Position numbers and translations under genes: made by a program. Of a stretch of 41,642 nucleotides of DNA, positions 3,731 through 35,722 are shown piece by piece (within the stretch, counting starts at the first letter, position 1; every line of letters begins with the position of its first letter). The notes under the pieces were generated by a model. The model saw only the letters and a program-made list of their open reading frames with translations, ran no database searches and was not told where the DNA came from. Source of the stretch: a virus; IMG/VR virus record IMGVR_UViG_3300028558_000047, positions 1 through 41,642 of that record; one strand, 5' to 3'.

Positions 3731-5962
3731 TCATGACTTGGTATAGAAGCCAGTGATGTGCGCGACGCCGAAAACTTTATTCCCAGCCTCATCGCAGAAA
3801 GCAACCTCGCGCGGCTGCATGACTTTCAAATCGGCGGTGACGAAGGGAGTGACCGCCGTGGGAGTCGTGGCTGCCAGGGCATCTTTAATCAATTTCGGAT
3901 CGTGATTGAGTTGCCCGCCGATGACGCCCGGCGTGGAACCAGTCGGGAGCGTGGTGTAAAATGTTTGCGCCTGTTTCTGCGGCAGTTTTAATCCCTCCAC
4001 GGTGTTCGCCTGGCCGGCCGCATCGGGAATTTGAATCTCGCCGCCAGCGGCCACCGTGTTATCGGCTTTCAGGTTGGCGCTGAACCAGGCGCGGCGGAAG
4101 CGGCACATGTTCAGCAGCGCGGAAAGCTGATCCGCGCTCAAGTGTTTGGCGATGCCGATCCGGATCGACGTTTCCTTAGTGCCCCAATCCTCTTCAATCT
4201 CCTGAATCTGCGCGTGCATCGTCGTCCACTCGGTGCGGCCGCCGGTGAGGTTCGCCGCGTTCAAAAGACTCACGCCGCTGGTGAAGCTCGCTTCCACTTT
4301 CACGAACTCACCCTCGTATTGCCGCGTCGAAAGCATGTTCCACAAATATTGGGCGATGCCGCCCGCACCGAGGGTGTAGAGCTCGCCCGCCGAGCTGGAG
4401 GCCACGGCACTGTAATCATCGGTCACGCCGTTAGTCAGCTCGCAATTGACGTGCTCCTGATCGGTGGCGTTGTGGCGGTGAATCACATTACCGGTAGTGT
4501 CGGTCTCGCTTGAGCCGGTGGCGTCGTATTCCGCGAATTGCATTGGCGCGACGATCTTCACCTTCACAGATTTGACCGGCACCCCACTGACCAACATCCA
4601 GGGCGCAACGCCAGTCCCGAGCAAGCGGTTTACAAAGAACGAATAATCCGCTGAAGTAAATTCCTGGTTGGCAGCGACGGCCGTGCCGGTGGAATCCAGC
4701 CCGGCGGCGGCGTAATAAATCTTCGCGTTCGGAATTGTTGTCGCTGCTCCGGACTCGTCCTGGAAGCGCGCGCGGGCATCTTCGAGCTTGGCGAGTTCAC
4801 CACCCTTTTTGCTCGCCCACCAATCGCGCCGCGTGGCATGGCTGCCCCCAATGCACGCGAGCGGCTCGCAATTCAAACTGCCCGTGGCGAAGCTAATGCT
4901 GAAACCTTGCAGGTCCAAAATTAGAACGACTACGCCCGGACCGGCGCCGGGATCGCTGCCGCTGTTGGAACCGTGCGGGCCGTATTTATCGATCGCGTAA
5001 TCGATGCCGGTCGTGCCCCCGACCGTGTTCGTGATGCGATAGCCGATGACGATGGCCGCAGGCACCAGGTCATCGCGGCGCTGAAGATTGATGCTCTTGT
5101 GATTCGTGCCATCGAAGAGCGCCAGGTTCACGTCGGCGGCGTTCCCCATGTTTATGAAATAAACCGTGGGCGGTGTCGTGGAATAATCAAAAGCCATGTT
5201 CGTGCGCGGGGACCATTCCAGCAGTTTTTGAATCACCTGCGTCGCGGACATGGGGCGGATGATTTCACTCTTTAAAAAGAGTTTAAAGAGGCTGACATCG
5301 ATGGTGGGAGTGGCGTTGACGTGCTTGATGTAGGCATTGCCGCCGGCATCGGTGTTTTCGCTGATGGCGGCCGTGCCGCTCGTGTTCAGGTTGATCGCGC
5401 CAGTGGTGAGATCGCGGCCCACGTATTGAAACGGCGCAGCGAGACTCAGCGCCGCATAGCTATCCAAAACGAATTGCAGGACGCATTGAATCTGATCGCC
5501 AACACTGATGAAGCGCAGGCCACCGCTTGAGATCAGGGGATAAGCGGCCGTGTTGAGCACATTCTCGCCGGGATTGTAATTGGTGGTCTGGCCTTTGAAG
5601 GTCTGGAGGTATTGCGTGATGTCCAGGTCATACCATGGACCTTGGAATTCGTAAGACACGCCCTGGCGCGCGGCGGCGGCTTGCAGAACGTTCTGAACGC
5701 GTTTGCCCTGAAACTTAATGGTGCCAACGCTGAAGGAATTATCCGAGCCATCCGCGCTCACGCGATTGGTGCGCACTTTGACAAATGCTTCGTAGGGAAA
5801 GATTGGATCGTCGGCAATGTTCGCGCCGGCGACCGTGGCTGTGAAGGTATCCGCCTGGAGATTGCGGCGCTTGGTTTTCGGCGCAGGTTGAAGCGCGAAA
5901 CCCCAACCGGCGAACGTGCGCTCGGTGCCATTGTATTCCAAGGTGTCGTATAGGTTGCTCAT
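3731..5962 (-). CDS. Large tail protein, probable hub or baseplate component (743 aa)
   Basis: Starts at ATG 5962, overlapping the tape-measure stop by four bases (ATGA), so the two are translationally coupled. The protein is mixed alpha/beta, soluble, and has no signal peptide or membrane segment. Segments such as YEFQGPWYDLDITQYLQTF and QVIQKLLEWSPRTNMAFDY look like the hub/tail-associated proteins that follow tape measures. They read like modules that unroll beta-sandwich domains around a FxWxP-type core, but I cannot place the family. Position directly downstream of the tape measure is the main argument for a hub or baseplate role. A protein of similar size (D, P or gp44 type) occupies that place in other contractile or siphovirus tails. 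Confidence 0.65.
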   Translation of the reverse strand: MSNLYDTLEYNGTERTFAGWGFALQPAPKTKRRNLQADTFTATVAGANIADDPIFPYEAFVKVRTNRVSADGSDNSFSVGTIKFQGKRVQNVLQAAAARQGVSYEFQGPWYDLDITQYLQTFKGQTTNYNPGENVLNTAAYPLISSGGLRFISVGDQIQCVLQFVLDSYAALSLAAPFQYVGRDLTTGAINLNTSGTAAISENTDAGGNAYIKHVNATPTIDVSLFKLFLKSEIIRPMSATQVIQKLLEWSPRTNMAFDYSTTPPTVYFINMGNAADVNLALFDGTNHKSINLQRRDDLVPAAIVIGYRITNTVGGTTGIDYAIDKYGPHGSNSGSDPGAGPGVVVLILDLQGFSISFATGSLNCEPLACIGGSHATRRDWWASKKGGELAKLEDARARFQDESGAATTIPNAKIYYAAAGLDSTGTAVAANQEFTSADYSFFVNRLLGTGVAPWMLVSGVPVKSVKVKIVAPMQFAEYDATGSSETDTTGNVIHRHNATDQEHVNCELTNGVTDDYSAVASSSAGELYTLGAGGIAQYLWNMLSTRQYEGEFVKVEASFTSGVSLLNAANLTGGRTEWTTMHAQIQEIEEDWGTKETSIRIGIAKHLSADQLSALLNMCRFRRAWFSANLKADNTVAAGGEIQIPDAAGQANTVEGLKLPQKQAQTFYTTLPTGSTPGVIGGQLNHDPKLIKDALAATTPTAVTPFVTADLKVMQPREVAFCDEAGNKVFGVAHITGFYTKS

Positions 5963-7375: not shown

Positions 7376-7720
7376 TTAGAGTTGAGAGGGTTGAACTTGG
7401 AGCGTCGAAGTCCCCCGCAGGCGGATGAATCGTGCGCCGTGCATTTTCACGAACGCATTCGTGTCCGCATCCGGCTGCCGGGATTGTTCGGCGGCCCACC
7501 ACGGGCCTTGTGCGTTGCTCGCGACTTCGAAGACCCAATCGAAGTTCGTGGCCCATGAGGCGTCACCAGGCCATTGAATGGTAAAGTTTGTTTTGCTCAG
7601 GCCGAAGCGCGCGAACGAAGGGAAGGGATTCGATGGCGTGACCGTCGAGCTTTTCACCGCGACGTAGACACCCACGGCCGTCGCGCTCGCCAATGTCAAA
7701 ATGAGCGGGTAAAATTTCAT
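7376..7720 (-). CDS. Small exported or membrane-anchored protein (114 aa)
   Basis: Start chosen at MKFYPLILTL (7720), which overlaps the stop of the preceding gene by ATGA. An N-terminal hydrophobic stretch (residues 4-23) is a signal peptide or membrane anchor. The remainder ends in NFDWVFEVASNAQGPW followed by ARFIRLRG. This resembles the 'VExSxNLxxW ... FYRLR' beta-sandwich tail that I recall at the C-terminus of many exported Verrucomicrobiota proteins. That would make it a small surface or fibre-associated domain. Function is not recognised. Confidence 0.6.
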   Translation of the reverse strand: MKFYPLILTLASATAVGVYVAVKSSTVTPSNPFPSFARFGLSKTNFTIQWPGDASWATNFDWVFEVASNAQGPWWAAEQSRQPDADTNAFVKMHGARFIRLRGTSTLQVQPSQL

Positions 7721-9051
7721 CGCGTCCAAGGCGCGTAACGCGGGGTTATCAAGGTAAGGGCGAAGGCGTTGTTCGTCGGCGTTGCGGCCGCCCAAATGTT
7801 CGTGTCCTTAGAGTTGAGATTGGATATTTGAGCGGCCAAGGCTGTGATTAGCGCATCGCCCCGTTTCCCGGCATTCCATTGAGTGGTAGCGTTAGCATCG
7901 TAAGCCTGTTCTCCCTGTCCATCACCAGCACTGCCATCCACCAGCGTTATCTCGTCGCAATATCGCCGAGCCCGAATCAGCCTCAGAACTTCGACGCGCT
8001 GATTCCAATTGGCGCCCGTGGTGATGTTGAACAGGTTTATGTCCAGCCGTCCGCTTGAAATCGTTCCGCTCCAAATTGTCGCCCCGTCTTCTGAAAGAGT
8101 AAAATTTCCATTTGGCAGGTTGGTGAACGTCAGCACTTCGTAACTCGCATTGGTGATGAGCAACGCTTCGGTGGCGTCGTTAGTCACAACGTTCGAGTCC
8201 GACAAAGCCGTTCCCGGAACATCCCACGCCATGGAGTGGCGGTCCGCTTTCCAACTGAACGAAAAAGTATTTCCGGTCAGAGCCGCAGAACTTACGACAC
8301 AATGCTGGGTTACTGACACGCTGCCGCCGCTGTAGTTGATAACGCAAGTGTTGACGTTCGTGTCCATCTCGGCTTGCGCGGCAACGATGGCCATATCAAG
8401 ATTCCCAGGTGGGCCGGGATGCGTAAGATCGGGGACTCCAAAGCGCAATGGGTTGCCGTTGTAAACGCTGTTCGACCAACCGGAGGCAATCAGTGGGTGA
8501 AAAATATCCACGCCGCGGTAAGCGATCTGGCTGGCAATATTCGTCGCCGCGTTGTTCCTCAGTTCCTCGGAGTTACCAAGGTTGAACTGGTTCGTGTATG
8601 GAATCGCTCCGAGACCAATCCAATTGATCGAATTAGTGGCGGCCCATCCTCCCACGTTCGTATAGGTGGTTCCGTCGAACGTGTTGGTTGGAGCACGGAA
8701 GGTGTTGGTTAGGTTCTGCGATACCTGAAGCGCGGTGTAGCCGCCGTTATCATCCGCCCAAATCTCTCCCCAGAACTGGCTGCCGGTCGCCCATTGAGCC
8801 AGCCCTTTGCGGGGGATGCGATCCTCATTCGCGCCTTGAAGGCTGTCGCCGCCACGGGAATCCTCATTGCAGTGGATGTGCTGATTTGGCCAGTAAAGAT
8901 ATTTGGCGGAATCCAGATAATCCCCGGCGCGATGCGATGTGAAATAGGAGGACGCAAAGCGATTAAATACCGCATTATTCGAAACGGTCAGTTCGGCGTG
9001 AGCCACCGCGACCCAGCCGAGCAAAATGAAAATGGAAAGCAGCCGCTTCAT
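7717..9051 (-). CDS. Exported protein of the tail module (444 aa)
   Basis: Start at MKRLLSIFILLGWVAVAHA (9051) because it gives an ATGA overlap with the upstream stop and begins directly with a classic Sec signal peptide ending AHA. An alternative ATG at 9058-9060 adds three residues. The mature part is rich in Asn, Thr and Trp and has beta-type composition. A C-terminal segment, EITLVDGSAGDGQGEQAYD, is unusual. I see no catalytic motif that I can name. It sits between two other signal-peptide proteins and upstream of the tape measure, so it belongs to a block of exported proteins placed where fibres or tail accessory proteins are normally encoded. Confidence 0.65.
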   Translation of the reverse strand: MKRLLSIFILLGWVAVAHAELTVSNNAVFNRFASSYFTSHRAGDYLDSAKYLYWPNQHIHCNEDSRGGDSLQGANEDRIPRKGLAQWATGSQFWGEIWADDNGGYTALQVSQNLTNTFRAPTNTFDGTTYTNVGGWAATNSINWIGLGAIPYTNQFNLGNSEELRNNAATNIASQIAYRGVDIFHPLIASGWSNSVYNGNPLRFGVPDLTHPGPPGNLDMAIVAAQAEMDTNVNTCVINYSGGSVSVTQHCVVSSAALTGNTFSFSWKADRHSMAWDVPGTALSDSNVVTNDATEALLITNASYEVLTFTNLPNGNFTLSEDGATIWSGTISSGRLDINLFNITTGANWNQRVEVLRLIRARRYCDEITLVDGSAGDGQGEQAYDANATTQWNAGKRGDALITALAAQISNLNSKDTNIWAAATPTNNAFALTLITPRYAPWTR

Positions 9052-9800
9052 GGCTTCCATACCCCCAACGTCATACCGCCGGCGTTTACCGTTCCCGACA
9101 TTGTAATTGTCGGGTTTATAAATGCTGCCGTGGATTGAATCAGGTAAAACTCACAGCCGCGCATGGGATCTGAAAGCTCCTGCCCTTGCGCGATCAGAGC
9201 CAGGCTTGAATCGACGCTTGCCGTCGCCGCATTGTTATACACAGCGGAGGCAATAATCAGTTCGCTGTTTGCGTTAGGCGTGACGCCCGAGGTTTGAAAC
9301 GTGGTGTCGTTCTCGCCGTTGGGGTGGGTGTAGCTGCTTTGCGCAATGAAGGTCGGCGTTCCGGAGTCGCTCCAATATATCACGTCCACCCTGACATATT
9401 GAGCGCCTGAAACGCTTACGGTGTGTGCGGAAAGAGAACCCGTTGGAGAAATGCAGTCCCACAAATCATTGGTGTAAACCGCGCTCGTATCCCCGCCCCT
9501 TGAACGTCGAGTGTAGGTGTTCCCATTGCCGTCAGAAACGGTTGGACTTCCAGTATAGAATTGAACCGCAACGGTAATTAACTTCGCACCGGTTGCGTTC
9601 TTTGCGGCCGTAGTGGCTGTTGCTGCGCCGCTGACGACGCCCACGGAGTTTGTTATGAACGCGAAACTGCCACCCCCGCCCCCGCCACCGGCTGCGGCAT
9701 TCGTGGCGCTGAACGCGGCGAGTCCGTCCGCAGTGAGAATCGACTGCGCGGAAAGGTTCAACGCAAAGACGCAAAGGAACAAAAACGCCAAAGCTTTCAT
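9048..9800 (-). CDS. Exported poly-Gly-linker protein (250 aa)
   Basis: Begins MKALAFLFLCVFALNLSAQ, a signal peptide with a likely cut after SAQ, then a Gly-rich linker (residues about 38-45, GGGGGGG) and a beta-rich Ser/Thr body (SGPTVSDGNGNTYT-type segments). The gene overlaps both neighbours by ATGA, so it is part of one translational chain with the fibre gene upstream. The hydrophobic core LFLCVFALN is encoded by an antisense copy of the AACGCAAAGACGCAAAGG repeat (9757-9780). The sequence SDGNGNTYTRRS followed by a beta-rich domain resembles a class of environmental secreted proteins but no function is recognised. Confidence 0.65.
   Translation of the reverse strand: MKALAFLFLCVFALNLSAQSILTADGLAAFSATNAAAGGGGGGGSFAFITNSVGVVSGAATATTAAKNATGAKLITVAVQFYTGSPTVSDGNGNTYTRRSRGGDTSAVYTNDLWDCISPTGSLSAHTVSVSGAQYVRVDVIYWSDSGTPTFIAQSSYTHPNGENDTTFQTSGVTPNANSELIIASAVYNNAATASVDSSLALIAQGQELSDPMRGCEFYLIQSTAAFINPTITMSGTVNAGGMTLGVWKP
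9757..9780. repeat. AACGCAAAGACGCAAAGG-type repeat used as signal peptide
   Basis: The stretch TTCAACGCAAAGACGCAAAG lies inside the first 15 codons of the exported protein that starts at 9800. Read antisense it gives LCVFALN, the signal-peptide core. Relatives lie at 17673-17695, 27328-27360, 28237-28258, 31132-31167, 37181-37207 and in the element at 15511-15668. Confidence 0.85.
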
Positions 9801-12616
9801 TGGTTCTCCCTCATGGCCGCTTCAATCTGTGCCGCGTTCGTGCCTCCATAACTCGTCAGCGAGAGCACGCCGTTGGTGATTACGTTGTTTGAACCTGAGA
9901 TCCACTTCGGTTGATAATCGAAAGCAAGCGTATTGTAAGCTGCCGCTCCGACAATTCGATAGCTAACCGAACCATTCGCGCCCGCGAAATGAAAGAACAG
10001 GTTCGTCCCAATGCTTGGACCATTCGTGACGGTAAAGGTTTGCATCGTGCCGTTGAATGAAGCGGTAATGTTAGTGGTCGTTCCCTTGTGCGTCCACGAC
10101 ACCAGGTTCGTCCAAAGATTTCCATTCAAGGTCGTGATCGGATTCGTGTTGGCATCCGTCATCAAATACTGGTTTGTCTGAGTTACCCCCGCGTATGAAA
10201 TGAGCTGATTAGTGGTGGCCACACCGAACCCACCAACCGTAGCCGATGCCGCCGCCAAAGCTCCGGTTGAATTGATTCCACCCGCATAAATCTTTCCAGA
10301 AAACACATTGGATGCTCCCGTGAACGTGTTCACGTTAGCTGCTACAACGTCGCCTGATCCGCCCGGCGTTGCATAGGTCTGGTCTCCACGAAGAAATGTA
10401 GTGCTATTTGCCGTGCCTGAACCAAGCCGGGCCGGGGCAACAGTCCCGCTCGCGAGCGCCGAGGCGTTAATGTTGGTAATATTAGAGCCGTCGGCGGCGT
10501 CCCAGTGGATTACGCTGCCGTTCTGGTTAACCATACTGGGATCGAGCATACCCCGGACAGTCGTGTCCCCGCGTGCCGAAATAAAGTTAAGCCAGGTAGG
10601 AGAAGGTCCTGCCAAATTAAAGACGTTGTTGGCGAGCGTCAGCCAGTTGGTATTTCCGCCGATTTGGTTAACCCCAATAACCTTGCTGCAATTGGAGGAT
10701 AGTATGGAAATGTTGCAATTCTGAATGACGTTGGTGAACTGAGCAAAGTTGAAAGCGCGGTTTTGCACGCCAGTTCCAAAATTTGTGTCCCCCGTGATCC
10801 GCACATTGACATTTTGAAACACCCAAGTGCTGTTGGTTGCGCCGGTAGCAGCACTGAGCATGACCGTATCGTAACCGGCAACCAGCGTTGAATTTTCAAC
10901 AATGCCCGAACAGTTCGTGCTGAAAAACCGGCTGTCGGAGGTGCTGTTTCCCCAAATCGCATCCGAGTCGCCGACAATTTTCATCCGGGTAATCAAGGTG
11001 TTAGTCCCCCTGGACAAGGCGATTGGCATGTAGTAGGTGCCGTTGTTCGCGTTCGTTCCGCAGGTGAAATCCGAAAGCGTGATGTTATCGCCCGCGATGA
11101 CCAGTTCGCACGGCCAGCTTCCGGTGGTCAGTGCCAAACTCAAATTGCCCGGCATCAAAACCGTTTGCGCTACCCCCTGCCCTTGAATGGAAATATTCGA
11201 CAGCAACGCCGACCCATTCGTAGACGCGTCGGTGTAGAACGTGCCGACGCCAAGAATAATTTTCGCCGGGGCGACCGCGCTGGCGAGTGCATTGGTGAAT
11301 GTGCGAAAAGGCTTGTTCCGCATCCCGACGACAGCCGTTACGTCGTTCCCGTTCGTCTCCACAAAATAAATATTGGGGCTGACGGCGATCAATCCGTTCG
11401 TGGCGGCCGTTGCCGCCGCCAGGGCCGCGCCCGCTTGATCGAAGTCAGTGGCCTTCTTGCCGCTGTCGATGATGTGCGTCGTCGTGCTGTCGCTGAGTTG
11501 AGCAAAATTGCCAGTGGTGGACGATCCGCTGCCAGTGACGTTTCCGCCTCCGGGAATAGAACTGGTCGTTAGTTTTCCAGACGAGTTTACACCGAGCACA
11601 GATACAGCAGCCCCTTGGTCTGTGCTTCCGTTCAACTGCAACGTCTGCAATTGCAAATTCCCAGAGCCATCTGAATGAATTGTGTTACCATCCATCTGCA
11701 ATGTCCCGCCGCTCAAAGCGCCGGTTACATGCATCGTTCCTGCAAACACGTCGCCGGAAGCCTTCACATTACCCGCATCCGATATGGCAACGCCGGTTTG
11801 GCCCACCGAGTTCGTCATTATCAAAGTTCCGCCCGCCATCGGAGCGTTGGTCGGCAGGAATGAGTTGGTGTTCTGGAACGCCATAATTTGGCTGTTCGTC
11901 AACCCCATCGAGTTAGTGGCGGCCATAGCGGTCGCCAACCCGGTGCCCGCGCCATCGTAGGCGGATGACAGCGTGAAGGCGGCACTCCCAAGTAAAGCGA
12001 GGGCGCGATTGATCACTGCGACCGCATACGAGTTGGTGTCCCATTTGCCCCAGTTCGTCAAAGTTAGGCTGGGTGGCTGACCACCACCACCACCGCCGCC
12101 GCCCGAAACTCCGCTGGCGTCAATGGTCCACTTCCCTCCGCTGCCAGTCGGCGGCGTCACGATCAGTCCGCCCAAACCGGTAATACTTTCCACACCGCTA
12201 TAAAAAACAACACCATGGCCGGTCTCAATCAAATCAGCCAGGTTCAGCGCCGTGTCCGAATTGGTGACGCTGAACTGAAAGCTCTGCGGGATGCCCGCGT
12301 AAGCCGCGATATATTTTCCCGGCACGAGGTTGAACAATCCAATCCCGTTCGTGGTCGTGAAGTTCGTGCCGTTCACCGGTAGCCGATAAAACTGGCCATT
12401 CCAAATCGTGGGATTATTCACCGCCTTAACGTTGATCGTCGTGTCGTTCGTCGTCCCGATCATCAGCGAGTTCGTGGAATAGATTGGAATCTGCGCGGAG
12501 CCTTTGAAAATTAGAAGAGCAAACAGAAATGGTATCAGGGCTCGACGGAGTCTCGCCCCACCAAATGTGTTCTGACCTTGGACTTTGGACTTTGGACTTT
12601 GGACTTTCATAATCAT
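9797..12616 (-). CDS. Tail fibre with beta-helix domain and signal peptide (939 aa)
   Basis: Probable receptor-binding fibre. ATG at 12616 is chosen because it overlaps the upstream stop by ATGA. Residues 5-15 come from a short repeat; then RLRRALIPFLFALLIFKGSAQ (22-42) reads as a Sec signal peptide. A Gly-rich linker lies near 175. Residues about 435-670 alternate short beta strands with Asn/Thr turns (KPFRTFTNAL, then ILGVGTFYTD, then NITLSDFTCG), the pattern of a right-handed parallel beta-helix of the pectate-lyase type. GTVAPARLGSGTANSTTFL followed by RGDQTYA (about 725) is a common phage fibre motif. A signal peptide on a fibre is odd. The alternative is a secreted, not virion, beta-helix adhesin. 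Confidence 0.75.
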   Translation of the reverse strand: MIMKVQSPKSKVQGQNTFGGARLRRALIPFLFALLIFKGSAQIPIYSTNSLMIGTTNDTTINVKAVNNPTIWNGQFYRLPVNGTNFTTTNGIGLFNLVPGKYIAAYAGIPQSFQFSVTNSDTALNLADLIETGHGVVFYSGVESITGLGGLIVTPPTGSGGKWTIDASGVSGGGGGGGGQPPSLTLTNWGKWDTNSYAVAVINRALALLGSAAFTLSSAYDGAGTGLATAMAATNSMGLTNSQIMAFQNTNSFLPTNAPMAGGTLIMTNSVGQTGVAISDAGNVKASGDVFAGTMHVTGALSGGTLQMDGNTIHSDGSGNLQLQTLQLNGSTDQGAAVSVLGVNSSGKLTTSSIPGGGNVTGSGSSTTGNFAQLSDSTTTHIIDSGKKATDFDQAGAALAAATAATNGLIAVSPNIYFVETNGNDVTAVVGMRNKPFRTFTNALASAVAPAKIILGVGTFYTDASTNGSALLSNISIQGQGVAQTVLMPGNLSLALTTGSWPCELVIAGDNITLSDFTCGTNANNGTYYMPIALSRGTNTLITRMKIVGDSDAIWGNSTSDSRFFSTNCSGIVENSTLVAGYDTVMLSAATGATNSTWVFQNVNVRITGDTNFGTGVQNRAFNFAQFTNVIQNCNISILSSNCSKVIGVNQIGGNTNWLTLANNVFNLAGPSPTWLNFISARGDTTVRGMLDPSMVNQNGSVIHWDAADGSNITNINASALASGTVAPARLGSGTANSTTFLRGDQTYATPGGSGDVVAANVNTFTGASNVFSGKIYAGGINSTGALAAASATVGGFGVATTNQLISYAGVTQTNQYLMTDANTNPITTLNGNLWTNLVSWTHKGTTTNITASFNGTMQTFTVTNGPSIGTNLFFHFAGANGSVSYRIVGAAAYNTLAFDYQPKWISGSNNVITNGVLSLTSYGGTNAAQIEAAMRENQ
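12574..12610. repeat. CCAAAGTCCAAAGTCC-type tandem repeat in coding start
   Basis: Four near-perfect units of GACTTTGGACTTTGGACTTT type. On the minus strand they encode KVQSPKSKVQG at the start of the fibre protein, directly ahead of its signal peptide. Same family as 3691-3723. Confidence 0.85.
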
Positions 12617-14122: not shown

Positions 14123-14866
14123 TTAACTGATCGTTTGATTGAGGATTTCTCCGGGGTTGAAGCCGTCCGCATACGCGGCGGCGCGAATGACCTGGCCGCT
14201 CTGCGCGGCGAATGGCGCGGTGTAAATTTTCGATTGCGGATTGAGCGGCGCGGGCGGATCGGAAAGCGGCGCAATGGCCACGTCAGGGTCGCTCGGGAAC
14301 GATCCATCGATCGTGTAACAAATCTTTGCGCCGGGCGTGGCGCAGGCGAGCGTCACGTTTTGCGGATCGGTGATATCGATCTGAAGAGTAGCGGTGCGCG
14401 GGGTCTGGCGGGAAGCGAGCGGCTTGATCTTGAGCGTGAGGCGGCGGGCGTTGATGCCGGGATAATCCCGCGCCGGCGTGCTCAATTTCCCATCCGCCTG
14501 GATGGTGCCGAGCTTGCCGAAACTTTGCAGATGCAGCGCGTCCAACACGTATTGCTCAATTTCCTCCGCGAACAATCCCCCGCCGACATCCGTGAACGCC
14601 CCATCACCATTTTGAAAGCTAACGAAATTAAGAATCACGACCTGCGGCGGGCCGCTGACATTATTGCCGCCGGATTCGATGTCCGGCACTTCGATCAACA
14701 GCCCATCCCCGCTCTTGCCATTGCGCACCGTGAGCCAGACCGCATCCATTTCGATCTGAGATTCAACGATGAATTTCTTTTCGAGGACAATGTTCACCGT
14801 GGCGAGCTGCGGCGCGGACATGAGCAGGCCGAGACAATCCTCCTGGATTTGGTTCAAGTTAATCAT
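14123..14866 (-). CDS. Tail-completion-like protein with chitobiase C-terminal domain (247 aa)
   Basis: Residues 1-150 form a helical/beta domain (MINLNQIQEDCLGLLMSAPQ, then FAEEIEQYVLDALHLQSFG) of the kind found in tail-terminator proteins. Residues about 170-235 (VTLACATPGAKICYTIDGSF, then KIYTAPFA and VIRAAAYADGF) match the chitobiase/beta-hexosaminidase C-terminal Ig-like domain pattern (TPGAxIxYTxDGSxP). The domain is normally an accessory of surface enzymes. Here it decorates a tail protein. ATG 14866 overlaps the upstream stop by ATGA. The small domain might assist in binding polysaccharide on the host surface, but that is inference. Confidence 0.65.
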   Translation of the reverse strand: MINLNQIQEDCLGLLMSAPQLATVNIVLEKKFIVESQIEMDAVWLTVRNGKSGDGLLIEVPDIESGGNNVSGPPQVVILNFVSFQNGDGAFTDVGGGLFAEEIEQYVLDALHLQSFGKLGTIQADGKLSTPARDYPGINARRLTLKIKPLASRQTPRTATLQIDITDPQNVTLACATPGAKICYTIDGSFPSDPDVAIAPLSDPPAPLNPQSKIYTAPFAAQSGQVIRAAAYADGFNPGEILNQTIS

Positions 14867-15495
14867 GCGGTCACGCCTCCTTTGCGGGCTTTGATGCCGG
14901 CGAGACGCTCGCGCGCCGCCGCGAACACCGTGGCGCGATATTCCTCCGGCGTGGGCATGACGTTCGGATTCGGCTTCTGATCCACGCTGCCGACCAGTTT
15001 GAACAGGAAAGTGAGCGTTGCCCGCAAAGGACCCCGACCCTTTGTCCGGGGGCTGCGTGCTTTCGGGTGAGACCCCGAGGTTTGATATTGGACGATGTAG
15101 GCCCCCTTTTTCGTCTTGAGCAAAAATGAACCGGGAAAATCCTTGGCGGTCTTGCCATAACTCAGCGGCGAGATTGGGATCGTGAGCGCGGAGGCCGTGA
15201 CTGGCGCAATGTGTCCGCCCAAATAACGCTGCCGCACGCCCACTTTATCCACCACGATCTTAATCCCGCCAGCGGCCGGCTCCCACCGCGTGGCGCGCGC
15301 TGCCGCTTCCCAAAAATTGGTAGCCGGCCAGCCCTTTTTATTATGGGGCAGCCGTTTCAAATGATCGCGCGTGAGTTCCTGGCAGCGCGGGCCAAATGTG
15401 GCCCGCAACTTTTCCGGGCTCAATTCGCGATTCAATTCTTCCAACACTGCGGTGGCGCCGCGATCAAAGGTGTTGATTTGAAGCGCGACACTCAT
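14863..15495 (-). CDS. Putative virion morphogenesis protein, gpG-like (210 aa)
   Basis: Start at MSVALQINTFDRGATAVLEE (15495) is set by an AAGGAG Shine-Dalgarno (15504-15509 on the complementary strand); the open frame extends further upstream without support. The first 60 residues (LEELNRELSPEKLRATFGPR, then LTRDHLKRLP) and the basic, conserved core (NFWEAAARATRWE, then VRQRYLGGHIAP) resemble Mu G-type tail-completion/virion morphogenesis proteins. These proteins bridge head and tail. The order here (portal, protease, capsid, connectors, this gene, tail) fits such a role. Overlaps the next gene by ATGA. Confidence 0.6.
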   Translation of the reverse strand: MSVALQINTFDRGATAVLEELNRELSPEKLRATFGPRCQELTRDHLKRLPHNKKGWPATNFWEAAARATRWEPAAGGIKIVVDKVGVRQRYLGGHIAPVTASALTIPISPLSYGKTAKDFPGSFLLKTKKGAYIVQYQTSGSHPKARSPRTKGRGPLRATLTFLFKLVGSVDQKPNPNVMPTPEEYRATVFAAARERLAGIKARKGGVTA

Positions 15496-15510
15496 CGGGC
15501 AACTCCTTTT

Positions 15511-15668
15511 AACGCAAGGGCGCAAAGGCGCAGAGAGTTAGCGGGATCAGCAACGTCATCTCCTATCCCGTTTATATCCGGCGTTGCATCGCGGGAGGAT
15601 GACTGGCCCACAAAGTCGTTTCGGCTTTTCTCTCTCTGCGCCTTTGCCCCTTCGCGTCTTTGCGTTGA
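15511..15668. mobile_element. MITE-like inverted-repeat element (about 158 bp)
   Basis: Outer arms AACGCAAGG...GCGCAAAGGCGCAGAGAG (15513-15539 region) and their inverse CTCTCTGCGCCTTTGCCCC...TCTTTGCGTT (15631-15666 region) match almost perfectly once an eight-base gap is allowed. The middle holds about 90 bases of non-repeated sequence. It fills the whole gap between two genes that would otherwise lie close together. The arms are the same repeat family as 9757-9780. The translation of the element on the minus strand (15492-15677, starting NNSTQRREGAKAQRE) is read as element sequence, not a gene. Confidence 0.7.
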
Positions 15669-15673
15669 ATTAT

Positions 15674-16444
15674 TCACGCGGCGGCTTCCTCCACAGGTGA
15701 AAAGAGTTTACTGAAATCAATCTCAGCCGGCTCGGCTTGTTCATCGGCTTTGAGCAAACCGAGTTCAACGCATTCCTTATCGCTCACTTCATTGACATCG
15801 AAGCCGCTATTGAATGCGAACGGCGGAAAAGGATTGCCGAGCGTGTCATCATAACCGCCCGAGCCATCACCGAGGCGCTGCCAGATTTCGGAATTCTTCA
15901 GCGCCATCATGCGCTCGGTCGTTTCGAGAATCCCGATAATGGCGTCCTCATCCTCCAACCCTTCCGCCGCCGCGCGCCAGCGCGCCGGCCAGGCGTCTTC
16001 CGGGTCTTCCACCAGCTTCCCCTTGGAATCCATCTTGAACCCACGCGGCACAGCGCGATCGTAAATGCGCAGCAATTCCCATCCAGGATAGGCTTCCACC
16101 ACGTCCGCGTCATTCGCGCGCACATAATTGCCCGCACCCCGCGCCACCTCCGTGGCGATCTTCACCGTGAAATCGATTTCATCCGCCAACGCCTCGGGCG
16201 TGACCTCCGAAAGAATATCCGCGATCGCATTGCGCGCGGTGGCGGGATTCAAGCCCGTGGTAACAGAGTGTTCCAATCCTTCGCGCGTCTGCTGCTGCGG
16301 ATTTAAAACATCGGTTAACGCTCCTTTAATTCGGTCTAAAATTTGTTTCAACTTCGCATCCGAGACCTCGCCGGAATATTTGCGCATCGCATCCGCAATC
16401 GCCTGCGATTGCTGCCGCGTCAGTTGGGTGGTGATGATGGGCAT
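15674..16444 (-). CDS. Virion protein, conserved head-related element (256 aa)
   Basis: Soluble helical protein with YPGWELLRIYDRAVPRGF and a C-terminal segment NPFPPFAFNSGFDVNEVSD followed by KECVELGLL. The PPFAFNSGxDVxEVxxxxCxELGL pattern is one that I recall from the tail of phage minor head/morphogenesis proteins. ATG 16444 overlaps the stop of the upstream gene by one base. A helical N-terminus (RQQSQAIADAMRKYSGEV, then LKQILDRIKGAL) suggests a structural or assembly role. I cannot show a protease or lytic site, so the name stays general. Confidence 0.55.
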   Translation of the reverse strand: MPIITTQLTRQQSQAIADAMRKYSGEVSDAKLKQILDRIKGALTDVLNPQQQTREGLEHSVTTGLNPATARNAIADILSEVTPEALADEIDFTVKIATEVARGAGNYVRANDADVVEAYPGWELLRIYDRAVPRGFKMDSKGKLVEDPEDAWPARWRAAAEGLEDEDAIIGILETTERMMALKNSEIWQRLGDGSGGYDDTLGNPFPPFAFNSGFDVNEVSDKECVELGLLKADEQAEPAEIDFSKLFSPVEEAAA

Positions 16445-17289: not shown

Positions 17290-17730
17290 TTATTGACTCT
17301 TGAACAAACCGCCGTTGGTGACCGTGCCGGCGTTCTGGTTCGTTAGCGCCGTGATGCAAATGTATTTGTATCCCCCCAATGCATCGCGCGTGAGATTGCC
17401 GGTGATGTGGTTCGTAGTCGTTGGCCCGGCATTGGCCCCAATAAACCACCAATTGGTCGACGTGGATTTATTCGTCCCGTCGATACTCGGCGTCGCCTGG
17501 TAAGCGACGTTGCTGGCGCCGGTTCCCCAAACAGCCAGGTCAAAGGCCGCACCCTTGTCCTGCTGAAGCTGAAACCAGCTCGTAAGGCTGTTGCTGCTCG
17601 CGCCGGTCGTGACGACAGTCGGCAGGTTGGTTGCGAGCGTCATGTTTATTGACGTGAGTTGCGCTTTAGAACTCAACGCAAAGGCGCAAAGGATCAGTGC
17701 AATGACGAATGACGAATGACGAATGGTCAT
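17290..17730 (-). CDS. Exported protein with repeat-built signal peptide (146 aa)
   Basis: Start at ATG 17730 gives MTIRHSSFVIALILCAFALS then SKAQ: a signal peptide with cleavage after KAQ. Its first ten residues come from an AATGACGAATGACG-type repeat (17701-17726) and the hydrophobic core from an AACGCAAAGGCGCAAAGG repeat (17673-17695). The remainder is beta-rich (WFQLQQDKGAAFDLAVWGTG, NHITGNLTRDALGGYKYICI). An ORF upstream of 17730 adds 45 hydrophobic residues and could be a second small membrane protein or an alternative start; no Shine-Dalgarno supports it. Located right after the major capsid gene, so it may be a capsid or virion surface protein, or a morons-type secreted protein. Confidence 0.6.
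   Translation of the reverse strand: MTIRHSSFVIALILCAFALSSKAQLTSINMTLATNLPTVVTTGASSNSLTSWFQLQQDKGAAFDLAVWGTGASNVAYQATPSIDGTNKSTSTNWWFIGANAGPTTTNHITGNLTRDALGGYKYICITALTNQNAGTVTNGGLFKSQ
17673..17726. repeat. Two adjacent repeats forming a signal peptide
   Basis: 17673-17695 is an AACGCAAAGGCGCAAAGG copy. 17701-17726 is AATGACGAATGACGAATGAC followed by GAATGG. Both are read antisense by the gene starting at 17730, the first giving LILCAFAL and the second TIRHSSFVI. Confidence 0.85.
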
Positions 17731-17899
17731 GATGCCGCGCCAGAATAGGCAAGCAACTCGCCAGACGTTTGATGTGAAAGGCTTGAGGTTTATCCAAACG
17801 CTGTGGAAGAACAACAGCGACAGCAACGCGAGCGTTGAAATGAACAGGATGGAGTAATAATTCATAACGTTTATTTTTTTATTTGAGATTGGTATTGAT

Positions 17900-17932: not shown

Positions 17933-18877
17933 TCAGCTGACCGTCAAGCGGCGCATCGCGAGCGTTGAGGTTTGCTTAATGTCGCGCGACCAATCGATGA
18001 GGTGACCTTCCCACAATTGGTTCGGCGCCTGGTAGGAGCGCACACCGGCGAAGGGCGAACCCATGCCGACCGTGAAGCTCTTGAAGGGACTCGGATCGTA
18101 GAGCGTGGCATTCGGAACGCTGTAATGCAGGAGGCATTCCGAGTTGAGCACGCGCTGTTTGGATACGGCCACACCGAGGCCGGTGGTATCTTTCACCAGC
18201 GCGGCAATGAACACGTCCACCGGGAACATCAGGATGCCCGCCAGTTGATCACGCGTGATCCCGCCGATCTGCGTGAACTGTGTGCGTGTTTTGATCTTGG
18301 GATGCCGGCGAAGGATGGCCCACGCGTTGACATCGATGGTGAGCTTGATGTTGCTCACCGAGCCGCAATCCAGCGAGAGCTGGAGCAACTGCTCATCTAA
18401 CTGATCAATCGGATCGATGTCGGGATTGCTCCAATTGCCCCGGCCCACAACCGCCGTGACGTTAGCGAGCACGGCCGATACGACCGAGACGCCGTGGCTC
18501 AAGGCCGTTTTGTTCAGCAGCGCGGCAATTTTGCCTTCGCGCAACAATTGCTGTCCGAGCGCGCCCGCGCCGGAACCTGCCGCGTCAATTTCCGCCTGGT
18601 CCACGCGCACTTCGAGTGCCTGCGGCTTGCAGGCGTAAGTGTCGTCGGTGGCCTTGATGCCGATCACATTCGGATCGCCACCGAGCGCGCGACCCGTATC
18701 TTCCGGCAGGAAGGAGTTTTTATCGTCGAACTTTTTGAACGTGCCGGCCGAGCCGGGCACCGGCGTGGACGGCGCGAGCCGTTCCGCCAATGCGCGCGCA
18801 TCCGCAAGATCGTTCATGTGTCCCTGAGCGAACGTCGTCAGGGGGTAATTTAATGTGGCTGTTGATTCTACGCCCAT
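17933..18877 (-). CDS. Major capsid protein (314 aa)
   Basis: Begins MGVESTATLNYPLTTFAQGH at ATG 18877, with an AT-rich leader and no clear Shine-Dalgarno. The 314 residues show an N-arm, a long helix (NDLADARALAERLAP), and a mature core with segments like TYACKPQALEVRVDQAEIDA and NIKLTIDVNAWAILRRHPKI that resemble the phage HK97-fold capsids of the gpE/DUF-type group. C-terminal SPFAGVRSYQAPNQLWEGHL fits. Located after the decoration protein and protease, as in Mu-like heads. A hairpin repeat directly follows the stop. Confidence comes from position and fold-like pattern. Confidence 0.7.
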   Translation of the reverse strand: MGVESTATLNYPLTTFAQGHMNDLADARALAERLAPSTPVPGSAGTFKKFDDKNSFLPEDTGRALGGDPNVIGIKATDDTYACKPQALEVRVDQAEIDAAGSGAGALGQQLLREGKIAALLNKTALSHGVSVVSAVLANVTAVVGRGNWSNPDIDPIDQLDEQLLQLSLDCGSVSNIKLTIDVNAWAILRRHPKIKTRTQFTQIGGITRDQLAGILMFPVDVFIAALVKDTTGLGVAVSKQRVLNSECLLHYSVPNATLYDPSPFKSFTVGMGSPFAGVRSYQAPNQLWEGHLIDWSRDIKQTSTLAMRRLTVS

Positions 18878-26954: not shown

Positions 26955-27434
26955 TTATTTCAATGGAGTGCCCGTGGCGGATTTGTTGATGAGTTGCCCG
27001 GCGGCCGAGCCGATGCCCTGGATGATTTCACTGCTCGCCTCGCCCGCCGCCCGAATGCCGTTCGTGCTCACCTCGCTTTGGAACGAACCGATGCTGAGCG
27101 AGGATGAACCGCCGAGCGCCGTTTGATTCGTGTGCAGGCTCACCAGCTCGCTCGCTTTGGGATCGGCGAGGAACGCGCGACCGCCGCCCGTCCATTCGTC
27201 GCGCCAGATTTCGTGACGCGTCAGAAGCGCAACCGGGTAGCAGCCGGGCCGTTGAAGGATCGTGTAATCAAACCGCTCGTGAATCGTGCGGCCCTTTTTG
27301 TGAGCGGAGACGCAGCCGGGAAGAACGATTAACGCAAAGGCGCAAAGGACGCAGAGAAAGGCAGAGGAATGATTGGCAATGGAATGGAGGAACCGATTCC
27401 TTTGCCGTTCATTCCCCTGCCTAAAAGTTTTCAT
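26955..27434 (-). CDS. Lipoprotein, possible outer-membrane spanin-like (159 aa)
   Basis: N-terminus SAFLCVLCAFALIVLPGC ends in a lipobox (VLPGC, Cys41) so the protein should be lipid-anchored. An AACGCAAAGGCGCAAAGG repeat (27328-27360) read antisense encodes AFLCVLCAFALI, the hydrophobic core. The rest is hydrophilic and ends in ETSEIIQGIGSAAGQLINKS-type helices. Lipoproteins near lysis genes can be outer-membrane spanins, but no coiled coil or Pro-rich rod is clear here. It could instead be a surface protein that blocks superinfection. Start ATG 27434 with a long basic N-region. Confidence 0.6.
   Translation of the reverse strand: MKTFRQGNERQRNRFLHSIANHSSAFLCVLCAFALIVLPGCVSAHKKGRTIHERFDYTILQRPGCYPVALLTRHEIWRDEWTGGGRAFLADPKASELVSLHTNQTALGGSSSLSIGSFQSEVSTNGIRAAGEASSEIIQGIGSAAGQLINKSATGTPLK
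27328..27360. repeat. AACGCAAAGGCGCAAAGG repeat used as lipoprotein signal
   Basis: Antisense copy of the same family as 9757-9780 and 17673-17695; extends further into GACGCAGAGAAAG. It encodes the signal sequence core of the lipoprotein starting at 27434. Confidence 0.85.
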
Positions 27435-27455: not shown

Positions 27456-27965
27456 TCACTTTCCGGGAGCGGGCGCTGCCGGCATGCCGGCCACGATGCC
27501 GTCAGCAATGGCGAGCGCGATGGGTTGCAGTTCCGCAAGTCGATCTGCGGGCACTTGAGGAACATCGATTGCGGAGATCAGAAGCGTCGCGCCCTCAAAC
27601 GAAAGTCGCGCGGTCTGGCTCTTCAATTCCTTCACCGGCAGTTGCTGCGCGATGGCAATCAAACTATCCAGGCTGATGCTCGGCGAGGTGGCGAGCAGGC
27701 GCAAGTGATCGGCGGCGAGTTGGAATTGCGGACGCCATTCAGGATGCGACGCGAGAACTTCGGACGTTCCAACCGTGGCCGCCTGGCGGCTGATGGTGGC
27801 AACGCGGACGGTGTCAATGGCCTTGCTGACATTCGTCACGCTATTGCCGGAAGCATCTTTTGTGACGGTGGTCGTGGACTTGCATCCAGCGAATCCGGAA
27901 AAGACGACGATGGGAACGAGTAGGAAAAGACCTACTGTCAGAAGAGACAGGATTTTTGTTTTCAT
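27456..27965 (-). CDS. Lipoprotein of the late left module (169 aa)
   Basis: Start at MKTKILSLLTVGLFLLVPIV (27965). A hydrophobic core followed by FAGC (Cys27) is a lipobox-like site, so it is probably lipid-anchored. The mature part is helical (IDTVRVATISRQAATVGTSE, then LKSQTARLSFEGATLLISAI). A pair of small lipoproteins beside a lipase is suggestive of lysis or superinfection exclusion, but nothing identifies it. The open frame extends a further 40 residues upstream without support. Confidence 0.6.
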   Translation of the reverse strand: MKTKILSLLTVGLFLLVPIVVFSGFAGCKSTTTVTKDASGNSVTNVSKAIDTVRVATISRQAATVGTSEVLASHPEWRPQFQLAADHLRLLATSPSISLDSLIAIAQQLPVKELKSQTARLSFEGATLLISAIDVPQVPADRLAELQPIALAIADGIVAGMPAAPAPGK

Positions 27966-28284
27966 GGTTTGAGGAAAAGAGAAGGACCGGCAAATGTGTT
28001 CGCTTGAACACGGAGGACGCCGATGACAAGTGCGCAGCACCTGCCGGCCTTCAGATTGGTTTCGGTTGAATCGGCGTCCTGACATGCACGCGATTGTGCG
28101 GCATGCCGGGAATTGTGCGCGTTCCTCAGGAACACGATTTGAAGGCGGGAATAAAAAAGCGGAAGCAACCGAGCCGGTCAGGCCATCGGCTGGCGTCCTC
28201 CGCAGGGAGGATTTAAAGCAGGGTTAACTCAGGCTGTCAACGCAAAGACGCGGAGTCGCGGAGTCTTGCCGCGAATTTCACCAA
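27966..28284. other. Non-coding gap (319 bp) with hairpins and repeats
   Basis: No convincing gene. Contains GTGTTC-GCTT-GAACAC (27996-28011), a perfect 11-base inverted pair AGGACGCCGAT (28014-28024) / ATCGGCGTCCT (28070-28080), and GTTCCTCAGGAAC (28119-28131), plus a repeat pair at its left edge (28237-28295). Could hold a small RNA, a terminator for the Sel1 gene transcript or a promoter for the genes to its left. Reading both strands for a tRNA fold gave none. Confidence 0.5.
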
Positions 28285-32772: not shown

Positions 32773-33617
32773 AAAATAAAACCACTCAACTCGTTTCCTA
32801 CAAACCGTCCGTGGATCTGAACCAATTTCGGCTGGTCGCCGAGCCGACCGCCGACGCCCTGGCCAATGACGTGGATAAGTTCAGCAAGATTTCCGATAGC
32901 GGAATGGATATGCACATCCTGGGAACGTTCCTGCTCGGCGTCACGCTGATCAAATTGAAAAAGGTGGTCGGCACCGCCAAGCGCGGCGTGCACGGGGGCG
33001 GTGATCCAGGCTGGATGAAATTCACGGCTCAACGCTTCCCGAACATCACGCATCGGTCATTGACGAACGCTGTGAATTTCGCCAAAAGCACCTTCGAAAC
33101 ATGGCAGAATCCTAAATTGGAAAGCGTTTCCAATTTAGGAATTTCCGAGGAAACAACTGCTAAATCCGTTACTTTGGCGGTTCCTCAAGACCCGGTTGGC
33201 TTCCAATTGCCCGAAAACCCCGATGAGCTTAAAGGGCTGTTAACGGCCATTCACGACACAATGGATGGCAAGACGATTACGGCCCTTTACCGTTCTTCCG
33301 GCCGCATTCGCGAGGCGGAAAAACAGGGCACGTATGACCGCAAGCCGAGGGATTTGCGCAAGAGCATTGAGAACGCGGCGGAGGTGGATGAGGAGGCGTG
33401 CAAATCGTGGATCAGCGACACGCTGATGCTGGCCGATGGCCGCAGCCCGATCCTGGCCGATCAGAAAATCACCATGCTGCATAAGCTGGAACAAACCGCC
33501 GAAGTGTTGCTCCACCGCGTGCGTGCGCTGATGAAGGCGAGGAAGGGGAAGCCGGAGGTCGGAGGCCAGAAGCCAGAGGCCAGCAATCGTAAATCGGAAA
33601 TCTCAAATCGCAAATGA
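32769..33617 (+). CDS. DUF3102-like protein upstream of transposase (282 aa)
   Basis: Starts MKNKTTQLVSYKPSVDLNQF at ATG 32769 (ATGA overlap). Residues about 48-105 (GTFLLGVTLIKLKKVVGTAK, then PGWMKFTAQRFPNITHRSLT and NAVNFAKSTF) resemble DUF3102, a family related to phage/plasmid DNA-binding proteins in which a helical array precedes SxRTxxRxxxLA. The C-terminal 22 residues (KPEVGGQKPEASNRKSEISN) are encoded by two repeat families (33551-33616). It overlaps the transposase start by ATGA, tying its expression to the transposase. Role in transposition control is inference. Confidence 0.6.
   Translation: MKNKTTQLVSYKPSVDLNQFRLVAEPTADALANDVDKFSKISDSGMDMHILGTFLLGVTLIKLKKVVGTAKRGVHGGGDPGWMKFTAQRFPNITHRSLTNAVNFAKSTFETWQNPKLESVSNLGISEETTAKSVTLAVPQDPVGFQLPENPDELKGLLTAIHDTMDGKTITALYRSSGRIREAEKQGTYDRKPRDLRKSIENAAEVDEEACKSWISDTLMLADGRSPILADQKITMLHKLEQTAEVLLHRVRALMKARKGKPEVGGQKPEASNRKSEISNRK
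33551..33616. repeat. Two repeat families in tandem at a gene end
   Basis: GGAGGTCGGAGGCCAGAAGC-type units followed by AATCGTAAATCGGAAATC-type units, together encoding the C-terminal tail of the DUF3102-like protein up to the transposase ATG. Confidence 0.9.
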
Positions 33618-35722
33618 CAACGCTCACCACCACTCATTTCAGCGTGCCAAAATCCGATGCGGATTTGTTCACGTCGCTGCCAGACAAGGCGCAATCGCTC
33701 GTTCGCAAACGTCTCCGCGCGATGCGCATCATGCAAGGGATCACCGAGACCAAAAGCGTGAACGCGGCGGCGCGGTCGGTGGCGGCAATGTTCCACGGGG
33801 AACGCGGGTGGAGCGCGGAGACGTTGAACGCGCTTTTCCCGAAATACATGGAGTCCGGCGATTGGACGGTGCTCATTGATAAATCCGTGGCCGGTCCGAA
33901 ATGGTATAAGAACCAGGATCGCGAGTCCGTGCCGGAAGCGGCGATCGATTGGTTTGCATCTGAGTGGGCTTTAGATCAGCGGGGCAAGTTCAAGGCGGTT
34001 TACGCCCGCGCACTCTGTCGGCTGGATCAGTGGAGGCGCGAAGCGACCCTCGACCCTCGACCCTCGACCCTCCGCAAATCCTCGCATGCCATCCCCGGTT
34101 ACGACACGCCACCGCCCGCGAGCGCGAGCAACGGCGCTCCCGCTGGGTGGCATTACAGCAATTTGAAACGCCTGGTCAATGCCCGCGCGTCCAAGTTTTC
34201 CCGCAAGCTCATCCAGATCGGGCCGAAGGCGGCTTCGCAGATCGGGCCGAAGATTCTTTCCACGCGCGTCGGGTTGCGCGTGGGCCAATACTATCTGTTT
34301 GACGACGGTTGGAATGATTTCAAGGTGCGCGCGAAAGATGGCCGCACCGGCACGGTGCAGGTGACGCGGCTGCTCAGTTTTCACGCGCTGGATTTATTCA
34401 GCGGTTGCAACCTGATGCGCGGGCACAAGCCGGCGCTTCGCGACGAGAAGGATGTGGAACAGCGGCTCAAGGAACGGGAAATCGTTTTTCTCGTGAACGC
34501 ATTGCTCACCAGCATTGGCTACCATCAATCCGGCTGCACGCTGATCATGGAAAAGGCCACGACCACCTTGCGCGCGCGCGAGCGGGAAATCCTCGAACAG
34601 TTTTGCCCGGAAATAAAAGTGGAACTCGGCCCACGCGGCGGCGGCGCGGGCATCTCCGGTTTATTCACCGGGCCGGGTGGCGGCAATCCGCGTTGGAAAG
34701 CGCCGCTGGAATCCTGGCACAACCTCCTGCGCAATCGCACGGCGAACATGCTCGAATTTCCCGCGCAGACGGGCAGCTATTCGAGTGGTCTCCCAATGCC
34801 GGAAGGGTTGCCCGGTCTGGAGCGCGATACCCGCGCGCTGATGGAAGCCGCGATTGCCTTGCCGGAAGATCGCGCCGCGCTGCTCCAACTCGGCATGCTC
34901 ACAGCGGAGGAGGCGATGGTGGCGCTCGATAAAGTGATTGAGGTCATGTGCAACTGCCGCACCGACCACGAACTGGAAGGCTGGCGCAAGTGTGGGCATG
35001 TAATCCAGGAATGGCGGCGGCACGCCTCGCTCCCGTGGCAGCCGGACACGGCGCTGCTGCAATATAAGAATGGCGAGGCACACGCGCTTGCGGAGCATCT
35101 GGCGCAACACCCTGAGCTTTGCCGGGAACGCAACCTTTCGCCGCGCGAAGTTTACGAGGTCGGTCGGCAGGAATTGACCAAGCTGCCGCTCGCGGTCGGC
35201 GCGATGTTGATGGGCGATTTAACGGGCGATGAACGGCCCGTTAAACAGAACGTGATCGAGGTTTCCTGTCCCGAGGTTGATCCCGATGAACCGTTGCGAT
35301 TCGGCCTCACCCGCCGGGACGGCCGTGGCACAGAGGAACCCTTGCGCGACACGGAAAAATATCTCGTGCGTGTGAACCCGATGGATGTGCGCTTTGCCTG
35401 GCTTTACAACGCGGACGGTTCCTTTGCCGGTGTGGCGGATAATTACGGCCGCGTGAGCCGCGATGATCCCAAGGCGGTCACGCACGCGTTTGCGCGGAAA
35501 CAAAAAGCGTTGGCCCCGCTCGTCGCCGAAGCTCGCCGCCTGGCCGCGCCGCTCACGCGCGCCGCCAACAAACGCGCCGCGCACAACGCGGGACAGTTTG
35601 CGCCGGATGACAAGGAGGCGCGTCAATTGCAAAACCTGCCCGGCGACGCTTCCGATCTATTGGATACCGCCCCTGTGGCCACATCCACCGACGAAGATTT
35701 TTCAAACGAAAGTTTGCTCTAA
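33614..35722 (+). CDS. MuA-type transposase (702 aa)
   Basis: DDE-family transposase that should cut and join phage ends. N-terminal HTH-rich part (residues about 20-160), then an RNase H-like core: VGQYYLFDDGWNDFKV (D230/D231), strand RLLSFHALDLFSGCNLMRG, then CTLIMEKATTTL with Glu (E313) where a second Asp is usual, and GGGNPRWKAPLESWHNLLRN with E366. A Mu C-type C-terminal domain follows (EVSCPEVDPDEPLRFGLTRR, then YLVRVNPMDVRFAWLYNADG). A tandem repeat at 34044-34075 encodes DPRPSTLR in the linker before the core. Slightly longer than MuA (663 aa). ATG overlaps the preceding gene; the ATPase follows at once. Confidence 0.85.
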   Translation: MTTLTTTHFSVPKSDADLFTSLPDKAQSLVRKRLRAMRIMQGITETKSVNAAARSVAAMFHGERGWSAETLNALFPKYMESGDWTVLIDKSVAGPKWYKNQDRESVPEAAIDWFASEWALDQRGKFKAVYARALCRLDQWRREATLDPRPSTLRKSSHAIPGYDTPPPASASNGAPAGWHYSNLKRLVNARASKFSRKLIQIGPKAASQIGPKILSTRVGLRVGQYYLFDDGWNDFKVRAKDGRTGTVQVTRLLSFHALDLFSGCNLMRGHKPALRDEKDVEQRLKEREIVFLVNALLTSIGYHQSGCTLIMEKATTTLRAREREILEQFCPEIKVELGPRGGGAGISGLFTGPGGGNPRWKAPLESWHNLLRNRTANMLEFPAQTGSYSSGLPMPEGLPGLERDTRALMEAAIALPEDRAALLQLGMLTAEEAMVALDKVIEVMCNCRTDHELEGWRKCGHVIQEWRRHASLPWQPDTALLQYKNGEAHALAEHLAQHPELCRERNLSPREVYEVGRQELTKLPLAVGAMLMGDLTGDERPVKQNVIEVSCPEVDPDEPLRFGLTRRDGRGTEEPLRDTEKYLVRVNPMDVRFAWLYNADGSFAGVADNYGRVSRDDPKAVTHAFARKQKALAPLVAEARRLAAPLTRAANKRAAHNAGQFAPDDKEARQLQNLPGDASDLLDTAPVATSTDEDFSNESLL
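34044..34075. repeat. CGACCCTCGACCCTCGACCC repeat inside transposase
   Basis: About four units of CGACCCT in frame, giving the linker TLDPRPSTLR. A degenerate relative lies at 38040-38066. Confidence 0.85.

Follow-up and report, generated by a model that had tools for sequence, protein, structure and literature searches.

Repeat DNA can end up translated within reading frames, as with Rickettsia palindromic elements, which are longer, palindromic, and found in many protein types. In the GDF/BMP family, orthologues retain a functional signal although almost none of its sequence is conserved (PMC2717928). For the Verrucomicrobia phage P8625, the authors detected no signal peptide among 52 proteins (PMC4642752). 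A literature search for signal peptides encoded by repeats in Verrucomicrobia found none reported. Here, a phage gene is described in which two short tandem repeats code for much of a predicted signal peptide. The stretch of DNA analysed, referred to as the window, is an IMG/VR virus record in its full length (IMGVR_UViG_3300028558_000047; 41,642 nucleotides).

Two tandem repeats in the gene following the major capsid gene

The window belongs to a tailed phage whose head genes are Mu-like. These genes, for terminase, portal, protease, and major head protein, lie on the minus strand. We infer a bacterial host of the Verrucomicrobia type. Immediately after the major head protein gene (17933..18877, minus strand; PHROG 1005, E 2.8e-35) lies the gene that carries the repeats (17290..17865, minus strand), an open frame of 191 aa, or 146 aa if translated from the ATG at 17730. 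Its product has no family assignment in Pfam or PHROG. The structure model is of a small beta-sandwich protein (mean pLDDT 62), with weak matches to tail fibres, carbohydrate-binding modules, and capsid jelly rolls (best E about 1e-3).

Both repeats lie on the minus strand near the 5' end of this gene, were found by TRF with 100% match, and are described here in the frame that opens at ATG 17730. The first is an AATGACG heptamer array of 3.6 copies (17701..17725; ATTCGTC on the coding strand), which is perfect and in frame, spans codons 2-10, and codes for a basic n-region; the proposal made in a sequence-only reading of this locus, that residues 2-10 come from repeat DNA, is thus borne out. 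The second (17675..17692) consists of two perfect copies of the octamer CGCAAAGG (17677-17692) plus 2 nt; it reads CTTTGCGC on the coding strand and encodes LCAFA of the h-region. The same reading had assigned residues 12-19 to the octamer, but its coverage begins with the third base of codon 13 and runs into codon 19, which leaves L12 and I13 outside the repeat. Much of the segment just ahead of the probable cleavage site is nevertheless repeat DNA. The two arrays lie one after the other on the minus (coding) strand, and the peptide read from ATG 17730 is MTIRHSSFVIALILCAFALSSKAQ. Octamer-like sites with up to 2 mismatches number 12 in the window versus 0.67 expected, a count reached by 0 of 100 shuffles, and the combined heptamer and octamer pattern was found in none of the genomes searched.

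Signals were called with a simple rule based on hydropathy and a cleavage motif rather than with SignalP. By this rule, translation from ATG 17730 gives a good predicted Sec signal, MTIRHSSFVIALILCAFALSSKA followed by Q, with a basic n-region, an uncharged hydrophobic h-region, and small residues at -3 and -1. The codons for A23-Q24 (17659..17664, minus strand) form a predicted signal peptidase I site (cleavage after SKA) that is invariant in 6 of 6 aligned homologues, and the product is predicted to be exported via Sec and cut at the conserved A-Q.

Computed translations indicate why such arrays resemble signals. Neither 7 nor 8, the unit lengths, is divisible by three, and the coding strand is free of stops; each array therefore encodes one cyclic peptide whichever frame is read. 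ATTCGTC yields IRHSSFV (basic and semi-hydrophobic), CTTTGCGC yields LCAFAPLR (hydrophobic), and the heptamer CTGCTTT yields LLSAFCF. The opposite strands give charged or interrupted peptides. Therefore, orientation, not frame, decides whether an array is signal-like, and insertion in the right orientation would easily provide a usable n- or h-region. Units of this kind near a gene's 5' end could also form a contingency locus, in which slippage shifts the frame and toggles the protein on and off. This is highly improbable, as the copy numbers are only 3.6 and 2 and the octamer is missing from related genes in the four records searched.

Homologues in the same slot of related phages

Orthologous slots in other phages were located via the head protein. 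Five lineages with 51-70% capsid identity to the window phage (L002, L003, L004, L005-L007, and L008, where L005-L007 are identical in the slot stretch and count once) each have a homologue in the post-capsid slot with a predicted signal. These proteins are 157-169 aa long and have a hydrophobic N-terminus that ends in A-Q-V. Their mature parts are homologous to that of the window protein (hhalign E=1.9e-6), which by both position and mature part is a member of this conserved group of predicted exported post-capsid proteins; A23, Q24, G60, and T86 are invariant among the six. Upstream of the conserved A-Q, the N-termini are dissimilar and unlike that of the window protein at both the protein and DNA levels, and no N-terminus shared at the protein level alone was found. 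The octamer is absent from the relatives' records (four records searched). In L002, the N-terminus of the homologue (5012-5521), KKGGFTLVQLLLVICIIGILAALALPARAQ, combines what resembles a type IV prepilin leader with a signal peptidase I site.

In the prophages L231, L232, L238, and L257 of Verrucomicrobia genomes, the slot also encodes a small protein that bears a signal. A different gene occupies it in many other prophages and in L009, which at 23% capsid identity is the most distant relative. Close relatives of the 17290..17865 gene were found neither in viral_contigs nor in phage records. The search turned up no near relative that preserves the sequence before insertion, and thus we infer the insertion rather than see it.

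The sequence-only reading had held that the export signal arose de novo from the repeats and had proposed examining orthologues without them. That comparison speaks against it, as all five lineages keep a predicted export signal. If the window lineage had had no export signal until the repeats made one, then a loss followed by a regain would be needed, given that the homologues in 5 of 5 lineages share the A-Q site and bear signals. Despite a predicted signal from 17730 that is largely repeat-coded, and array peptides that are intrinsically signal-like, de novo gain is thus quite unlikely. Instead, export of the slot product is most simply read as ancestral within the window phage's own group and would predate the repeats, because signal-bearing homologues occur in five lineages and the octamer in none of the records searched.

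Position of the translation start

The minus-strand reading from 17730 is correct, but the start itself is insecure, and a gene start at this position is doubtful. The frame stays open upstream to the ATG at 17865, which adds an extension of 45 codons (MNYYSILFISTLALLSLLFF...; 17731..17865, minus strand), which may be left over from the ancestral signal and is the probable true start region. The distance from the capsid stop is 67 nt for ATG 17865 and about 202 nt for ATG 17730, and it is 56-94 nt in five relatives (hand-counted on the printed sequence) and 48-69 nt in four prophages. An A-rich leader like that in relatives and prophages precedes ATG 17865. Codons 1-45 from this ATG have coding-like GC by codon position (0.36/0.38/0.71), and their codon score is highest in the gene's own frame. 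Spacing, leader, and GC3 favour ATG 17865 over 17730. Additionally, the N-terminus of the extension matches the L003 signal with a score of 40, compared to a maximum of 34 among 125 control signals, although L003 is the only one of nine relatives to stand out and hydrophobic segments align easily.

With a start at 17865, the repeat segment would sit behind an older hydrophobic N-terminus. This ancestral N-terminus might by itself direct export, with the repeats a tolerated insert before the cleavage site that has little function, and the start evidence above (capsid spacing, leader, GC3, and the L003 match) is consistent with such an arrangement. Nevertheless, the extension has neither a basic residue before its hydrophobic core nor a nearby cleavage site. 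Both features are present in the repeat-coded segment, which directly adjoins the conserved A-Q; a largely functionless insert is considered rather unlikely.

Recurrence of repeat-coded signals

Repeat-coded signals recur in other genes of the window. On the minus strand, an octamer pair detected by TRF (9761..9776) codes for the h-region FLCVFAL of a 250-aa predicted exported protein (9048-9800), and another (27333..27348) for part of the h-region (LCAFAL) of a predicted lipoprotein with lipobox LPGC (26955-27434), such that each perfect octamer array of the window (3 of 3) codes for sequence in the hydrophobic signal core of a protein predicted to be exported. A CAAAGTC heptamer array (12574..12607, minus strand; TRF) codes for the basic n-region KVQSPKSKVQ of a 939-aa tail-region protein that starts at 12616, the h-region of which is not repeat-coded. 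Other arrays in the window have different settings. A perfect CGACCCT heptamer array of 4.1 copies (34044-34072) lies inside a 702-aa gene (33614-35722), far from its ends, and oppositely oriented octamer arrays at 15513-15664 lie between genes 14863-15525 and 15674-16444, like chromosomal inverted pairs.

Three other phage contigs, L148, L192, and L198, also have tandem-repeat-coded signal cores, including a heptamer in a 945-aa protein (L192) and an octamer in a lipoprotein (L148). The latter is homologous to the window protein 27456-28085 (E 9e-22), the signal of which is not coded by these repeats; the pair is read as an independent signal swap. Array matches in L267, L270, and L080 may be leucine-rich coding DNA only. 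Separately, predicted Sec signals, unusual for virion proteins, occur on tail-region fibre-like proteins of the window (7717-9060, 9048-9800, and 9797-12616), and likewise in L262 (8277-9260), L264 (9848-11257), and L170.

Arrays were found in the h-regions of 3 of 8 window signals versus 6 of 477 interior 48-nt windows (p=2.4e-4), of 2 of 11 signals in relatives (p=0.008), of 2 of 40 in prophage regions (p=0.03), and of 3 of 22 in viral loci selected for their repeats (p=0.0025), all p-values being exploratory because the definition of an array was adjusted with the window arrays already known (three versions were tried, with two loosenings). Under a strict tandem criterion, the count for the window is 0 of 8. 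Loci from bacterial genomes had no enrichment in signal cores (2 of 91, p=0.25, likewise exploratory).

The repeats in bacterial genomes

The octamer occurs across many bacterial phyla. Both repeats are dispersed in the Verrucomicrobia MAG G007 (57 heptamer and 21 octamer sites), and the sites sampled there are mostly intergenic or at gene ends, which suggests a host-type origin of the repeats. In G005, G006, and other Verrucomicrobia genomes, octamer arrays often form inverted pairs about 30-200 bases apart, as if marking the two ends of a small element.

If the repeats are scattered genome-wide and hydrophobic coding DNA merely looks repetitive, then their place in the signal could be coincidental. 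Consistent with this, octamer arrays had no N-terminal preference at 192 sites of mixed loci, and a start codon ahead of an octamer in Verrucomicrobia genomes gave mostly short or unconvincing frames and rarely long ones. The best of the long frames, L278, has the repeat in the n-region only, and eight further octamer sites in G006 included no clear signal case. Nonetheless, arrays are commoner in signal cores than in gene interiors in the window and viral sets, although not in the genome loci, and coincidence is considered unlikely.

Discussion

The best reading, which we regard as probable, is that an ancestral signal was remodelled or turned over by repeats: the old, conserved export signal of the post-capsid gene would have been rewritten by dispersed, Verrucomicrobia-type short repeats, when heptamer and octamer arrays landed in the window lineage between the gene start and the A-Q cleavage site. 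The repeat in one lineage, the unrelated signals of the orthologues, and the shared cleavage site agree with this, as does the recurrence in other genes. The L002 N-terminus, which is prepilin-like and not a plain Sec signal, counts against it, and so do the different slot genes of L009 and many prophages and the 0 of 8 window signals under the strict criterion. Two versions of the event can be envisaged. In one, the repeat segment would now work alone from ATG 17730 and would have replaced the old signal; in the other, it would have been inserted downstream of an older hydrophobic N-terminus that starts at 17865. In either version, the repeats appear to have replaced or joined an older signal rather than to have created export from nothing.

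Repeats with units that are not multiples of three, and which encode one peptide in any frame, offer a concrete route to fast turnover of export signals, since a chance insertion will often yield a signal-like segment. A broader proposal is more tentative, and we think it possible rather than probable: dispersed heptamer and octamer repeats may supply Verrucomicrobia phages generally, and independently of frame, with n- and h-regions, and the signals of capsid-adjacent and tail-region proteins would be repeatedly rebuilt from host-type repeats. A further puzzle to which the locus points is why capsid-adjacent and tail-region proteins of these phages should be predicted to be exported via Sec.

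In comparison to Rickettsia palindromic elements, the window phage has arrays of heptamers and octamers, placed at N-terminal export signals. Phase-variable contingency loci likewise have short repeats close to where a coding region begins, but the window arrays differ in their low copy number. P8625 is also a tailed Verrucomicrobia phage, but one in which no signal peptide was detected, in contrast to the predicted signals of the phages analysed here (PMC4642752). The likeness to the GDF/BMP family is that orthologous proteins retain a signal (here, a predicted one) despite near-complete sequence change; the difference lies in the explanation, which there is neutral and compensatory point substitution in genes of animals, and in these phage genes would be the arrival of dispersed tandem repeats (PMC2717928).
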